From a virus: a stretch of DNA of 42,177 bases. The DNA is taken from IMG/VR virus record IMGVR_UViG_3300046048_000092, positions 1 through 42,177 of that record, one strand, 5' to 3'. Positions 21,342 through 25,001 of this stretch are shown piece by piece (the stretch's first letter is position 1; the number at the start of each line of letters is the position of its first letter). Both the position numbers and the translations under genes were made by a program. The notes beneath the pieces are model-generated. The model saw only the letters and a program-made list of their open reading frames with translations. It did not search any database and had not been told where the DNA came from.

Positions 21342-21418
21342 TGGTGGCCCCGGTAGGACTTGAACCTACGACCTTCTGGTTCAGAGCCAGACGCTCTAGC
21401 CAACTGAGCTACAGGGCT
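21342..21418 (-). tRNA. tRNA-Gln(CUG)
   Basis: Full cloverleaf with encoded CCA. The anticodon loop is CTCTGAA on a TCTGG/CCAGA stem; T-loop TTCAAGT. The 1-72 pair is a mismatch (A-C), which suits tRNA-Gln, where an open first pair aids recognition by GlnRS. Confidence 0.9.
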
Positions 21419-21420
21419 AT

Positions 21421-21496
21421 TGGTTGCCTCGGCAGGATTCGAACCTGCGGCCCAGGGATTAGGAATCCCCGGCTCTGTCCACTGAGCTACGAGGCA
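21421..21496 (-). tRNA. tRNA-Arg(CCU)
   Basis: Cloverleaf with acceptor TGCCTCG/CGAGGCA, anticodon loop TTCCTAA, T-loop TTCGAAT and encoded CCA. Reads AGG codons. Confidence 0.92.
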
Positions 21497-21508
21497 TTGT
21501 ATCACACA

Positions 21509-21567
21509 TGGAGTGCGGGGTGGGAGTCGAACCCACCAACGATGACTTTGCAGGCCACCTCCCGCAC
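21509..21567 (-). tRNA. minimal tRNA-Cys(GCA) lacking a D-arm
   Basis: Only 59 nt including encoded CCA. Acceptor GTGCGGG/CCCGCAC (7 bp) is followed by a single A and then directly by a 6-bp anticodon stem GGTGGC/GTCATC with loop CTGCAAA. The T-arm (GTGGG, TTCGACT, CCCAC) is canonical and the discriminator is U73, the Cys identity base. There is no room for a D-arm. Confidence 0.75.
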
Positions 21568-21572
21568 TCGAT

Positions 21573-21649
21573 TGGTTGACCCGGCAGGATTCGAACCTGC
21601 GACCAACCGCGTATCAGGCGGTTGCACTACCAGACCGTGCTACGGGTCA
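21573..21649 (-). tRNA. tRNA-Ile(GAU)
   Basis: Cloverleaf with acceptor TGACCCG/CGGGTCA, anticodon loop CTGATAC on ACCGC/GCGGT, T-loop TTCGAAT, encoded CCA. Confidence 0.92.
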
Positions 21650-21655
21650 TCAAGA

Positions 21656-21731
21656 TGGAAGCCCAGGTGGGACTCGAACCCACAACCCTACTGGTTCGTA
21701 GCCAGTCGCTCGTCCATTGAGCTTCTGGGCC
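21656..21731 (-). tRNA. tRNA-Arg(ACG)
   Basis: Cloverleaf with anticodon loop CTACGAA on ACTGG/CCAGT, T-loop TTCGAGT and encoded CCA.  The 1-72 pair is G-U and the discriminator is U, both unusual for tRNA-Arg. Confidence 0.88.
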
Positions 21732-21736
21732 TCAAG

Positions 21737-21812
21737 TGGTAGAAGCGGAGGGACTCGAACCCTCGGTTGCCTTCTTGTAAGGAAGGTGCTGTCGCCGCTG
21801 AGCCACGCTTCT
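21737..21812 (-). tRNA. tRNA-Val(UAC)
   Basis: Acceptor AGAAGCG/CGCTTCT, anticodon loop CTTACAA on CCTTC/GAAGG, T-loop TTCGAGT, A73 and encoded CCA. The D-stem pairs over only three positions. Confidence 0.9.
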
Positions 21813-21816
21813 GTGT

Positions 21817-21887
21817 TGGCAGGTGTGGAAGGAGTCGAACCCTCGCTTCTGGTTTTGGAGGCCGTCAGGCACCCTGTGCTCACACCT
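21817..21887 (-). tRNA. tRNA-Trp(CCA), compact and imperfect
   Basis: 71 nt. Acceptor AGGTGTG/CACACCT, G73 (Trp identity) and encoded CCA are good. The D-arm is a 4-bp stem GCAC/GTGC with only AGG in the loop. The anticodon loop CTCCAAA is right for Trp but its stem (ACGGC against ACCAG) pairs at two of five positions. T-loop TTCGACT. It may be functional with an odd fold, or decaying. Confidence 0.65.
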
Positions 21888-21892
21888 ACAAG

Positions 21893-21972
21893 TGGTGGCG
21901 GGGGTGGGAATCGAACCCACACTCGTGCTTGGTTATGAGCCAAGTGCAGCAGCCTGTACTGCGTGCCCCGCT
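21893..21972 (-). tRNA. tRNA-Met(CAU)
   Basis: Anticodon loop CTCATAA on CTTGG/CCAAG, T-loop TTCGATT, A73, encoded CCA. The 1-72 position is an A-C mismatch, reminiscent of initiators, but the three G-C pairs of an initiator anticodon stem are missing. It could also be an Ile2-type CAU tRNA. Confidence 0.85.
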
Positions 21973-21980
21973 ACGAATTT

Positions 21981-22055
21981 TGGAGCGCCCGCCGAGACTC
22001 GAACTCGGACCCGCTGGTTGGAAGCCAGACATGCTGCCATTGACACCACGGGCGC
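21981..22055 (-). tRNA. tRNA-Gly(UCC)
   Basis: Acceptor GCGCCCG/CGGGCGC, anticodon loop CTTCCAA, T-arm CCGAG/CTCGG with TTCGAGT, U73 and encoded CCA, all consistent with Gly. One T-C mismatch at the base of the anticodon stem. Confidence 0.9.
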
Positions 22056-22057
22056 TC

Positions 22058-22144
22058 TGGTGGATGTGGTAGGATTCGAACCTACTAAGCACAACGGCAA
22101 CTGGTTTACAGCCAGACACGACTCTCCCACGTCGTCGCACATCC
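22058..22144 (-). tRNA. tRNA-Tyr(GUA)
   Basis: 87 nt with a long variable arm, acceptor GGATGTG/CACATCC, anticodon loop CTGTAAA on CTGG/CCAG, T-loop TTCGAAT, A73 and encoded CCA. The class II shape agrees with bacterial tRNA-Tyr. Confidence 0.92.
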
Positions 22145-22147
22145 AAT

Positions 22148-22222
22148 TGGTTGACCCGGCTGGTTCCGCCCCAGCGCCTCCGGTGTTTCAAGCCGACGCT
22201 CTACTGACTGAGCTACAGGTCA
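22148..22222 (-). tRNA. tRNA-Phe(GAA) with a non-canonical T-loop
   Basis: Acceptor TGACCTG/CGGGTCA and D-arm GCTC/GAGC are normal; anticodon loop TTGAAAC with a C-A mismatch closing it. The T-stem GCTGG/CCAGC is perfect but its loop is GGCGGAA in place of the TTCRANN consensus. The same type of loop occurs in the His tRNA at 31638. Confidence 0.78.
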
Positions 22223-22226
22223 TTGT

Positions 22227-22302
22227 TGGTGGAGACGGTGGGAATCGAACCCACCGCAGTCTGCTTGCAAGGCAAACTCGCCCCCTTGGTACATGCGTCC
22301 CC
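22227..22302 (-). tRNA. tRNA-Ala(UGC)
   Basis: Acceptor GGGGACG/CGTCTCC, anticodon loop CTTGCAA on TTTGC/GCAGA, T-arm GTGGG/CCCAC with TTCGATT, A73 and encoded CCA. The D-arm is poorly paired. The G3-U70 identity pair of tRNA-Ala is present (third acceptor pair G-U). Confidence 0.88.
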
Positions 22303-22307
22303 ACGAT

Positions 22308-22382
22308 TGGCTGACTCGGCAGGACTCGAACCTGCGCGCTGCGGCTTAACAGACCGCTGCTCTGCCACTGAGCTACGAGCCA
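22308..22382 (-). tRNA. tRNA-Asn(GUU)
   Basis: Acceptor TGGCTCG/CGAGTCA, anticodon loop CTGTTAA on GCGGT/GCCGC, T-loop TTCGAGT, G73 and encoded CCA. Confidence 0.93.
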
Positions 22383-22388
22383 TCGAAC

Positions 22389-22464
22389 TGGTTGCCCCGG
22401 TAGGCATCGAACCTACAACCTTCGGGTTAAGAGCCCGCTGCTCTGCCAATTGAGCTACGGAGCA
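22389..22464 (-). tRNA. tRNA-Lys(CUU)
   Basis: Acceptor TGCTCCG/CGGGGCA, D-arm GCTC/GAGC, anticodon loop CTCTTAA, T-loop TTCGATG, A73 and encoded CCA. First gene of tRNA cluster 1 in transcription order. Confidence 0.92.
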
Positions 22465-22465
22465 A

Positions 22466-22497
22466 CGAAAACGGCGCGAGCCGTGAAGCCCGCGCCG
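22466..22497 (-). terminator. rho-independent terminator between the microprotein gene and tRNA cluster 1
   Basis: A 10-bp GC-rich stem (22472-22481 with 22488-22497, one G-U) and a 6-nt loop, followed on the minus strand by TTTTCG. It ends the short unit started at 22702. Because the first tRNA begins right after it, the tRNAs must depend on readthrough or an unseen promoter. Confidence 0.85.
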
Positions 22498-22522
22498 CTG
22501 TACATTCAAACGACTGGACTTC

Positions 22523-22627
22523 TTACTTCCTGATCCACCAGAAGATGTCGGCCTTGGCGACCGCTGGCATCACAGTCAGGGCCACGATAATGGCCGTGAA
22601 CATGAAATACCGGAAGCGTTGCCTCAT
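22523..22627 (-). CDS. 34-residue protein with a Sec signal peptide
   Basis: Starts at an ATG with AGGGAG upstream. Layout: basic head MRQRFRY, hydrophobic core FMFTAIIVALTVMPAV, a signal-peptidase-I-like site AKA before Asp25, and a remaining peptide of about ten residues rich in Trp and Lys (DIFWWIRK). It is the only gene of its own promoter-terminator unit. Either a secreted peptide or a membrane-active one; no homologue is recognised. Confidence 0.72.
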   Translation of the reverse strand: MRQRFRYFMFTAIIVALTVMPAVAKADIFWWIRK

Positions 22628-22678
22628 TTTCGATCTCCCTTGCTGCGAGAATGGGGCCATCCCCTAGATACAGCCTAC

Positions 22679-22707
22679 ACGATACCACAGGCATCAGGAG
22701 CTGTCAA
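22679..22707 (-). promoter_or_regulatory. sigma70-type promoter of the microprotein unit
   Basis: TTGACA (22702-22707) and TATCGT (22679-22684) on the minus strand with a 17-bp spacer. The -35 is framed by GGAGC and GCTCC arms, the same design as the promoter at 12094. The TGA of the upstream gene (22704-22706) lies inside the -35 box. Confidence 0.82.
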
Positions 22708-22928
22708 GCTCCGCCCCTCCCCTGATCTCGGACCAGGCTGATCGCTGCATCATTCAGAGCACGACTCATGCCAAGCAGGTCGATCGCGTTGCAGTTCATA
22801 TAGGCTGTGATCAATTGGCCGTCCGGGTCGATCGAGATCATCATCGCAGAGCTGGATTCACGCAGGATCGTCGCCATGCGAGCGCGCTGCTCCTCGATGT
22901 TCACGAGCCGGTCCATGCTGTCGGACAT
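22704..22928 (-). CDS. protein of unknown function
   Basis: A 74-residue protein starting at the ATG with AGGAG seven nt upstream; a longer frame from 22979 lacks a ribosome site. The sequence is helical (VNIEEQRARMATILRE) then a strand (MMISIDPDGQLITAYMN). No family recognised. Confidence 0.58.
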   Translation of the reverse strand: MSDSMDRLVNIEEQRARMATILRESSSAMMISIDPDGQLITAYMNCNAIDLLGMSRALNDAAISLVRDQGRGGA

Positions 22929-22985
22929 CCATGCTCCTAGTGCATCAGAACCGATGCAATACGCCTCTGTCCGGGGCATACTGCA

Positions 22986-23260: not shown

Positions 23261-25001
23261 AATCCATCCTCCCTGATTCATTGTCGATAGCGCACGAGGC
23301 ATCAACCTCGACGAGCATCGCCATACGCTCACCGTCAGCATTGAAGACGGTGCAGCCCTTGGCGCCACGTTCCCACGCCTCGAAGTAGATCTGCTTGAAG
23401 TCCTCCCAGGGCATGTCGCCCGTGACATTGCAGGTCTTGGACACTGCACTATCCACCCATCTCTGGGCTGTTGTCAACACAGCGACATGCTCCTGAGCTG
23501 TGACCTCACTGGACTTCTTACCTCGCACACCCAGGAACTCGACCCCATAGTCCTTCACACGTACCGTGCGCTCAACATTGTCGGGGCCGATATAGGTGCG
23601 GTCAGCTTCATACGCGAACACCGGCTCGATACCGCTGCTCACATTGTCCGCAGCCACACTGATCGTACCAGTCGGCGCGATCGAGAGCAAGTGGCTGTTG
23701 CGGATTCCGTGCTGCTTGATTCCCTCGATGATGTCCTCGAACAGCTCCTGATGGCTCTGGATGAAGCCACTCTGTAGGTACTTGGCGTTGAATGCAGGGA
23801 ACGGACCCTTCTCCTTGGCCAGTTCGATCGACGCACGATACGATTCGATCATCAGGGTCTTCAGGATCTCTGCCTCCATGTGGAGGAACTCTTCGCTGCC
23901 GTACTCAAAACCCATCGCTTCGAGTGCGTTCGCGAGGCCCGTGATACCGAGACCCATGCGCCTTTTGCTCTTCGCCTCTTTCTCTTGTTCGTAGAGCGGG
24001 TAGATGGCGCGGTCGACGACGTTGTCCATCGCACGGACAACGTGTGGAATGTCTGCCTTGAACTGATCCCAGTCAAAGCTCCAAGTGTGATCAGGTGAGA
24101 CCGATGCACGAGGCTGTAGGTACTTCGTGAGGTTGAACGAGCCCAGCAGGCAGGCACCGTCAGGGGGTAGGGGCTGCTCACCGCACGGGTTGCAGGCGGC
24201 GATCAGCTCACAGTACCACAGGTTGTTCATGGTGTTGATACGGTCGATGAACAGTACGCCTGGTTCGGCCCAGTCCCACGCACTGCGCATGATCATCTCC
24301 CAGAGTGCCCGAGCGTCGATCGTCTTGTAGGTCTGCCCCTCGAACACAAGCTCGAATTGGCTGCCGTGCTTGACCGCATCCATGAACTTGTCCGTCACAG
24401 CGACCGAGATGTTGAAGCCTGTCAGCGACCCCGTTTCACACACCTGGCACCAGTCACGCTTTGTATGGATGAACTCCTCGATGTCTGGGTGATCAACACG
24501 CATCACACCCATCTGGGCACCACGTCGATGGCCCGCTGAGCTGGTTGCCTTGCCGACCGAATCGAAGATCGGCATGAAGCTCACGGGTCCGCCGCTCGTG
24601 CTCTGGAGCTTGCGGATCAGCGACCCCTTGGGCCTGAGTGTGGAGAAGTCGTTTCCGAGCCCGCCGCCCATGCGCATTGTGATAGCGCCGCGCGTCGCGC
24701 ATGCCATGATGCTTCGATCCCCGTCCGTGAACGTGTCCTCGATCTTGGCGCCGACAAAACAGTTGTAGGGCGTTACGGCGCGCGTACTGCCCATCGCGGC
24801 CTGGATCCGACCACCGGGCATGAAGCGCATGCTGCCAAGGATGTCTCGCAGAACGTGGTAGTGCTCGTCATCATCCTTCAGCGCCGCAGCGACGCGATTG
24901 ATTGCTTCGCGATAACTCTCATTGCTCGATCGGTACTTGGTCTCGTGAATATGCTGCGCGAACGGGGTCACTGGTCCCATGTGGTTCCATCCTTGATTCA
25001 T
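23253..25001 (-). CDS. class II (B12-dependent) ribonucleotide reductase
   Basis: Reduces ribonucleotides to deoxyribonucleotides with adenosylcobalamin. The 582-residue protein has the NrdJ pattern: PGGRIQAAMGS, a radical-chemistry loop with NPCGEQPLPPDGACLLGSFN, MGLGITGLAN and SIAPTGTISVAADN, and a C-terminal Cys pair (ASCAIDN...DCE) for re-reduction. No ATP-cone is visible and no separate radical subunit follows, which fits class II. ATG with GGAG upstream. It supplies dNTPs independently of host oxygen state. Confidence 0.9.
   Translation of the reverse strand: MNQGWNHMGPVTPFAQHIHETKYRSSNESYREAINRVAAALKDDDEHYHVLRDILGSMRFMPGGRIQAAMGSTRAVTPYNCFVGAKIEDTFTDGDRSIMACATRGAITMRMGGGLGNDFSTLRPKGSLIRKLQSTSGGPVSFMPIFDSVGKATSSAGHRRGAQMGVMRVDHPDIEEFIHTKRDWCQVCETGSLTGFNISVAVTDKFMDAVKHGSQFELVFEGQTYKTIDARALWEMIMRSAWDWAEPGVLFIDRINTMNNLWYCELIAACNPCGEQPLPPDGACLLGSFNLTKYLQPRASVSPDHTWSFDWDQFKADIPHVVRAMDNVVDRAIYPLYEQEKEAKSKRRMGLGITGLANALEAMGFEYGSEEFLHMEAEILKTLMIESYRASIELAKEKGPFPAFNAKYLQSGFIQSHQELFEDIIEGIKQHGIRNSHLLSIAPTGTISVAADNVSSGIEPVFAYEADRTYIGPDNVERTVRVKDYGVEFLGVRGKKSSEVTAQEHVAVLTTAQRWVDSAVSKTCNVTGDMPWEDFKQIYFEAWERGAKGCTVFNADGERMAMLVEVDASCAIDNESGRMDCE

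Follow-up and report, generated by a model that had tools for sequence, protein, structure and literature searches.

A tiny phage gene and its chromosomal relatives next to a PDZ-SpoIIE phosphatase: a conserved C-terminal micropeptide core

The DNA analysed here, referred to as the window, comprises a complete IMG/VR virus record (42,177 bases) from a tailed phage, whose proteins include an RNR large subunit, a Dda-like helicase, a T5-A1-like DNA transfer protein, and a tail assembly protein. On its minus strand lies a frame of 34 codons between a promoter-like site and a terminator-like hairpin. This locus raises the question of whether so small a frame encodes a real peptide and, if so, what this peptide does for the phage.

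The peptide unit of the window phage

The unit begins with a promoter-like site, TTGACA-17-TATCGT (22679-22707, score 10/12), with a TG before the -10 element. Operator-like inverted arms, GGAGCT-TGAC-AGCTCC (22697-22712), overlie the -35 element and are the sole match in the window, even when up to three mismatches are allowed. A Shine-Dalgarno (SD) sequence AGGGAG (22635-22640) precedes the frame for MRQRFRYFMFTAIIVALTVMPAVAKADIFWWIRK, which occupies 22523-22627 and extends from the ATG at 22627 through 34 codons to the stop at 22525-22523. Its variable N-terminal part (22550-22627), consisting of a basic n-region, a hydrophobic segment, and AKA, is signal-peptide-like by inspection and is followed by DIFWWIRK (22526-22549), a C-terminal core immediately before the stop that recurs in other genomes. 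A terminator-like hairpin of 13 pairs with a subsequent short T tract is located at 22470-22499 and has a fold energy of -24.1 kcal/mol (z -6.0). Thus, all elements of the unit were located as the preliminary description had given them, but its estimate of about ten mature residues is too high: the predicted cut at AKA, assigned by inspection, would leave eight, which are exactly the conserved octapeptide. An AlphaFold2 model of the 34-residue peptide consists of one helix comprising residues 2-33 (pLDDT 79.6, pTM 0.36); it was built with four sequences and says little.

The regarded status of a dedicated transcription unit is only partly borne out. The gene has its own promoter-like site and hairpin, but an array of 12 tRNA genes follows on the same strand (21342-22464; 11 found by ARAGORN and one more, at 22151-22222, by Rfam, whose scan yielded tRNAs only). 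The tRNA-Lys gene starts at 22464, 5 nt past the hairpin end. Three promoter-like sites were found in 4 kb, compared with 1.0 expected by chance, and the sole other one on the minus strand between 20.5 and 24.5 kb lies at 23477. Based on the short distance and the single other site, transcription from the promoter-like site of the 34-residue ORF probably continues into the tRNA array. This order of promoter, ORF, hairpin, and tRNA array would suit a leader peptide or attenuator: passage through the hairpin into the array would depend on whether ribosomes translate the ORF or stall on it, and the core would act in the ribosome tunnel. Trp attenuation was rejected, as the array contains no tRNA-Trp according to ARAGORN and Rfam, and the Leu and Arg codons are free.

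A weak promoter-like site (9/12) on the plus strand is located inside the ORF at 22564-22591 and would read antisense over the start and the SD sequence. Just upstream of the 34-residue ORF, a further small minus-strand ORF (22704-22979) encodes 91 residues; it overlaps the promoter with its end, has no PHROG match, and is conserved, with 74 residues, in the relative L002.

This relative, L002 (IMGVR_UViG_3300033407_000016; RNR 95% identical), is the only one of 80 loci retrieved by the RNR protein of the window phage that has a matching unit. It keeps the ORF, the promoter, and the hairpin; the stretch from -35 to -10 as well as the stem and loop of the hairpin are identical to the window, and the inverted arms are conserved. 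The encoded peptides share 32 of 34 residues, the changes being R4H and F10C. Six bases differ in the 105-nt frame, of which two alter residues, whereas the others either are silent (or affect the stop codon only), four in all, and four small indels are found in the leaders and none inside the frame. The check for stops and frameshifts in related phages that the preliminary description had suggested thus found the frame of L002 intact. A 45-residue form starting from an in-frame ATG at 22660 was rejected since the extension is not open in L002, and 34 residues are therefore the right form.

Non-coding DNA around the ORF is likewise conserved between the window and L002, and only two alleles of the exact ORF are present in the data, as would be expected for a frame that is open by chance within a conserved leader. 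Two sequences alone are thin evidence, and a search for the C-terminus was therefore undertaken. No copies of the core were found in the other 79 RNR loci (L003-L081), which were covered for up to 10 kb on each side, so that the peptide is patchy among relatives of the window phage. Likewise, 50,697 annotated phage records contained no credible relative of the peptide by DNA or protein, the DNA hits listed in one of these searches being tRNAs. Two RNR loci with about 60% RNR identity to the window phage (L017:19144 and L032:20248) have ORFs of 35-44 residues ending in VPEP, a hydrophobic segment, and WRRKIR, which we take to resemble a PEP-CTERM sorting signal.

A conserved C-terminal core in viruses and chromosomes

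A back-translated ADIFWWIRK pattern matched the contig of L002 and one other phage contig, L083. On the minus strand of the latter (1556-2009), four tandem tiny ORFs with differing N-terminal parts all end in [AV]DI[FW]WW[LI]R[KR]-stop. Looser patterns including the stop matched 27, 20, and 13 viral stretches, which overlap, and one such pattern matched 59 chromosomal stretches. After removal of copies without SD sequence and start, 37 tiny ORFs with an SD sequence, distributed over 33 viral loci, end in the core, including near-duplicates (L102/L107 and L087/L089). The search for small ORFs of this shape that had been proposed at the outset was productive, in L002 as well as in these viral loci and in chromosomes. 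The family core can be written as D[IL][FWL]WW[LI]R[KR]; it comprises the last eight residues and is, rather than the signal sequence, the conserved part.

Several candidates were rejected. In L092, L093, L099, and L108 (HVYYLPIRHSIERDLWWWVRR), the motif lies in another frame of a 224-residue ORF and is spurious. No start with an SD sequence is present in L114, L115, L121, L128, L135, L138, L141-L143, and L155, and L112 has only a 10-codon AT-rich start. The core is present in L098, L103, L172, and L183, which have no SD-preceded start within 61 codons.

A stop-free pattern of the core matched 24 times in 22 viral stretches; a stop follows immediately after 20 of the 24, whereas the chance expectation is about 3 in 64. 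Among 116 distinct SD-bearing copies, in which the search expression itself dictates D and both W residues, six Leu codons are used at position 2, six Arg codons at position 7, and all three stop codons at the end. For this set, L003-L081 were excluded before counting, and ORFs lacking SD sequence and start were dropped; the start was taken as the first acceptable one met on moving outward from a point 13 codons ahead of the stop, and some lengths are too short. The free variation of codons around the core indicates that selection acts on the peptide. Judged from these comparisons, the ORF encodes a real peptide that is selected at the amino-acid level. The free codon choice and the stop enrichment argue against a chance open frame, a reading that is already largely refuted and that we consider highly improbable.

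The part before the core ranges from 5-7 residues up to signal-like sequences (window, L002, L106, L178, and L101), and the signal peptide is thus not a family trait. A basic n-region, an h-region, and AxA are recognizable by eye in the window, L002, L106, and L178. The initial designation as a signal-peptide protein therefore applies to the N-terminus of the window form by eye, but it misses that the conserved element is the tail. The last residue of the core is optional or extended among members (R, K, D, none, KKR, or LLGL). A variant with a C-terminal extension, MQMDNPFSPLGADIFWWLRKLLGL, is located at L189:879-902.

In L178, too, the predicted cut leaves exactly the octapeptide (AAA/DIFWWLRR), and in L106 it leaves one additional residue. 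This would be consistent with a secreted phage signal, in which signal peptidase I frees DIFWWIRK to be sensed by other cells or phages. Known short peptide pheromones derive from the C-termini of tiny hydrophobic precursors, and some have a WW motif (PMC5131902, PMC13361665). Such a signal had been considered from the beginning, but most members (14-22 residues) have no basic n-region or clear cleavage motif, and the window yielded no identified receptor. Furthermore, the RRNPP/Rgg pheromone receptors known to us belong to Gram-positive bacteria. Overall, a secreted signal appears unlikely.

A profile built from 35 peptides was used to search chromosomes. It matched 48 of 80 genomes of Krumholzibacteriota (the phylum of L136), with one match each except for one genome with two, 11 of 47 genomes of Eisenbacteria (the phylum of L158), and 2 of 286 genomes of Patescibacteria (the phylum of L151, Parcubacteria), where the second match has an internal stop. 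In the control phyla, none of 299 genomes from the phylum of L121, a Pseudoalteromonas, and none of 199 from the phylum of L132, a planctomycete, were matched. Many chromosomal members are ORFs of 14-22 residues; in many of the short cellular forms, the N-terminus is acidic or neutral and the C-terminus basic. The core is seen with the least bias in the weaker profile matches together with divergent ORFs of Krumholzibacteriota (see below): D, WW, L, and R or K are retained, F, L, W, or Y occupies position 3, and the core either ends in K, R, or D or lacks its last residue. Two peptide copies each are present in L139, L151, and L164. In six CPR loci (L113, L131, L145, L151, L163, and L165), clustering revealed a receiver-like gene of about 150 residues near the micropeptide gene; the one protein tested had no Pfam match.

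The hairpin was rejected as a universal partner of the core. A stem score of at least 8 was found after 13 of the 33 viral copies examined and after 23 of the 46 cellular ones, so that hairpins are frequent but not general. In L083, a strong hairpin follows only the last of the four tandem copies, which argues against an attenuator as the general function. An attenuator would, on the other hand, agree with the conservation of the C-terminus immediately before the stop and with the length of the many members of 14-22 residues, which would remain inside the exit tunnel. The optional or extended last residue fits a fixed register poorly, and the occurrence of all three stops also speaks against it.

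Linkage to a PDZ-SpoIIE phosphatase

Clustering of neighbouring genes revealed one recurrent protein in 27 loci. This protein has Pfam matches to SpoIIE and PDZ_6, and a GAF_3 match below the cut-off. A hydropathy scan predicted nine membrane segments with the PDZ domain between TM1 and TM2, which would place this domain outside the cytoplasm if the N-terminus is inside.

The linkage was tested by a motif-independent search of the same 80 Krumholzibacteriota genomes with the 866-residue phosphatase. At E <= 1e-40, 78 of the 80 genomes have a match, and 58 have long matches at E <= 2e-92, which were taken as full-length PDZ-7TM-GAF-SpoIIE proteins; in this set, G055 and G060 are without the first 170-220 residues, and two split matches were entered as one. 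All 58 genomes carry the tiny gene, and it adjoins the phosphatase gene in 57. In 44 genomes, the profile match is located 89-425 nt from the phosphatase gene (42 on the same strand and 2 on the opposite strand). In one genome it is found on another contig; wherever the contig allows, the peptide gene adjoins the phosphatase gene. In all 13 profile-negative genomes, the phosphatase gene is followed by a divergent core-bearing ORF of about 14-16 codons, nearly always preceded by a clear SD sequence, such as MKQINLIDLLWWLRR, MSWIYLLDLLWWLRR, MLPIFLIIDLLWWLK, MQKIYLIDLLWWLRR, and MRIELVDLFWWLKKR; the filter for these ORFs looked for aromatic C-termini.

Two loci with partial phosphatases were examined alongside, of which L321 has a tiny ORF and L322 has none. 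The peptide-positive genomes G016, G027, and G070 have no full-length phosphatase in the match list; two of their peptide matches are close to the end of a contig, and in one case a partial SpoIIE match lies directly upstream. In Eisenbacteria, a SpoIIE homologue is found nearby for 15 of 21 rows, corresponding to 9 of 12 distinct peptides. SpoIIE was found neither in the eight CPR loci examined nor in any phage locus examined.

In Krumholzibacteriota, the tiny gene follows the SpoIIE gene, often before a terminator-like hairpin, and the next gene can be on either strand. Together with the 2 of 44 cases on the opposite strand, this argues against a common cis target for an attenuator. We rate control of read-through as quite unlikely for the family, and a cis role may apply in the window, before the tRNA array.

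The linkage also bears on the idea of a small peptide that is active on membranes in the manner of type I toxins, or as a lysis or superinfection effector, and that would act on the inner membrane without a specific protein partner. In length, hydrophobicity, and a W/K-rich end, the peptides resemble small hydrophobic type I toxins such as Ldr, TisB, and ZorO, and Ldr occurs in tandem copies, as does the peptide in L083; the window copy, moreover, has its own promoter-like site. However, both the conservation of D and WW in unrelated genomes and the strict phosphatase linkage in Krumholzibacteriota point to a specific partner, chromosomes have one copy beside a sensor, and the antisense side is represented by weak evidence, the 9/12 plus-strand site inside the ORF. 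The toxin-like action is therefore improbable in our estimation. For superinfection exclusion, lysis timing, and interference with secretion, which the preliminary description had listed, no specific support was obtained here. Its more general suggestion of a role in the envelope or in signalling is favoured by the frame kept in L002, the selection at the amino-acid level, and the cellular relatives beside a membrane signalling protein.

Proposed role and relation to known peptides

The reading that we prefer, with a probability of roughly 0.35, is that the window ORF is a member of an undescribed micropeptide family, and that the peptide is a membrane-active regulator tied to a SpoIIE sensor and copied by phages. 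The family itself is solid, and the mechanism is what we infer. The core would be positioned at the membrane surface and act on a membrane signalling protein; W-W and the basic end of a peptide of 14-22 mostly hydrophobic residues would be suited to this location. In Krumholzibacteriota, the peptide may be a ligand or a small regulatory partner of the linked membrane phosphatase, with contact perhaps via the PDZ domain that is predicted to be extracytoplasmic. PDZ folds typically grip protein C-termini, but a basic R-K end is an unusual PDZ ligand, which counts against this mode of contact.

Phages would carry copies of the peptide as mimics, pushing host signalling or membrane state to their own advantage. 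The peptide MKIYLIDLLWWLRR of phage L325 is almost the same as the chromosomal MQKIYLIDLLWWLRR, and MKSINLIDLFWWLRR of phage L186 resembles the chromosomal MKQINLIDLLWWLRR, a likeness that fits capture or mimicry of a host peptide. With its signal-like sequence, the window form would present the core on the periplasmic side, where it would be free if cut at AKA and anchored if not. Against the preferred reading stand the absence of SpoIIE at the CPR and phage loci examined and the likely host affiliation: the conserved proteins of the window phage point to proteobacterial phages, and in the phylum of these likely hosts the profile matched 0 of 299 genomes. In addition, one shared topology is not obvious: the acidic or neutral N-terminus and basic C-terminus would put the core of many short cellular forms in the cytoplasm, and the window form is reversed.

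Among known systems, the streptococcal pheromones SHP, XIP (ComS), SIP, and LCP are the nearest in architecture, as they combine a tiny hydrophobic ORF with an Rgg-type receptor located in the cytosol (PMC5131902, PMC13361665). Their functional part consists of the C-terminal 7-9 residues, leaderless examples exist, SHPs begin with D, and type-II XIPs have a WW motif (PMC5131902, PMC13361665). In contrast, the protein linked to the DIFWWIRK family is a membrane PDZ-7TM-GAF-SpoIIE protein, the core differs from the streptococcal GLDWWSL and DILIIVGG, and the family occurs in phages, Krumholzibacteriota, Eisenbacteria, and CPR. No Rgg/RRNPP (HTH-TPR) protein was noticed among the neighbours scanned, in which either PDZ-SpoIIE or the receiver-like gene is recurrent. 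The phage arbitrium peptide AimP is a small secreted peptide encoded by a phage gene, but its sequence is unrelated to the family core and no AimR-like gene was identified at the family loci.

MgrB and similar proteins are single hydrophobic helices linked to a membrane sensor, as is proposed for the family, but the family peptides are half the size of MgrB or less, and we know of no sequence relation between the two. The type I toxins differ from the family by its D..WW.R core and its linkage to SpoIIE. The family has no match in Pfam, PHROGs, or PDB, and in NCBIfam only NF058583 was hit (E 0.066; 12.9 bits compared with a cut-off of 65) and no family matched. In the literature searched, which was also queried with spellings of the core, no description of the family was found. 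The peptides thus apparently form an undescribed family, and the principle of a peptide plus a sensor would be a familiar one if the mechanism is as proposed.

In its most far-reaching and rather doubtful form, the proposal would be that D[IL]FWW[LI]R[KR] is a cross-phylum ligand of a membrane-bound PDZ-SpoIIE switch that has been pirated by phages and that is carried, in the window phage, to the outer face of the membrane by fusion to a signal sequence, resetting host stress signalling in the course of infection. If this is true, ligand genes can be as small as about 14 codons. Genes of 14-22 codons escape ordinary annotation. The core directly before a stop and after an SD sequence provides a search key for the remaining family and its partners. 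With a conserved core, strict phosphatase linkage in a candidate phylum, and occurrence in unrelated phages, the family would offer a testable minimal case of a control peptide, together with its capture by phages.
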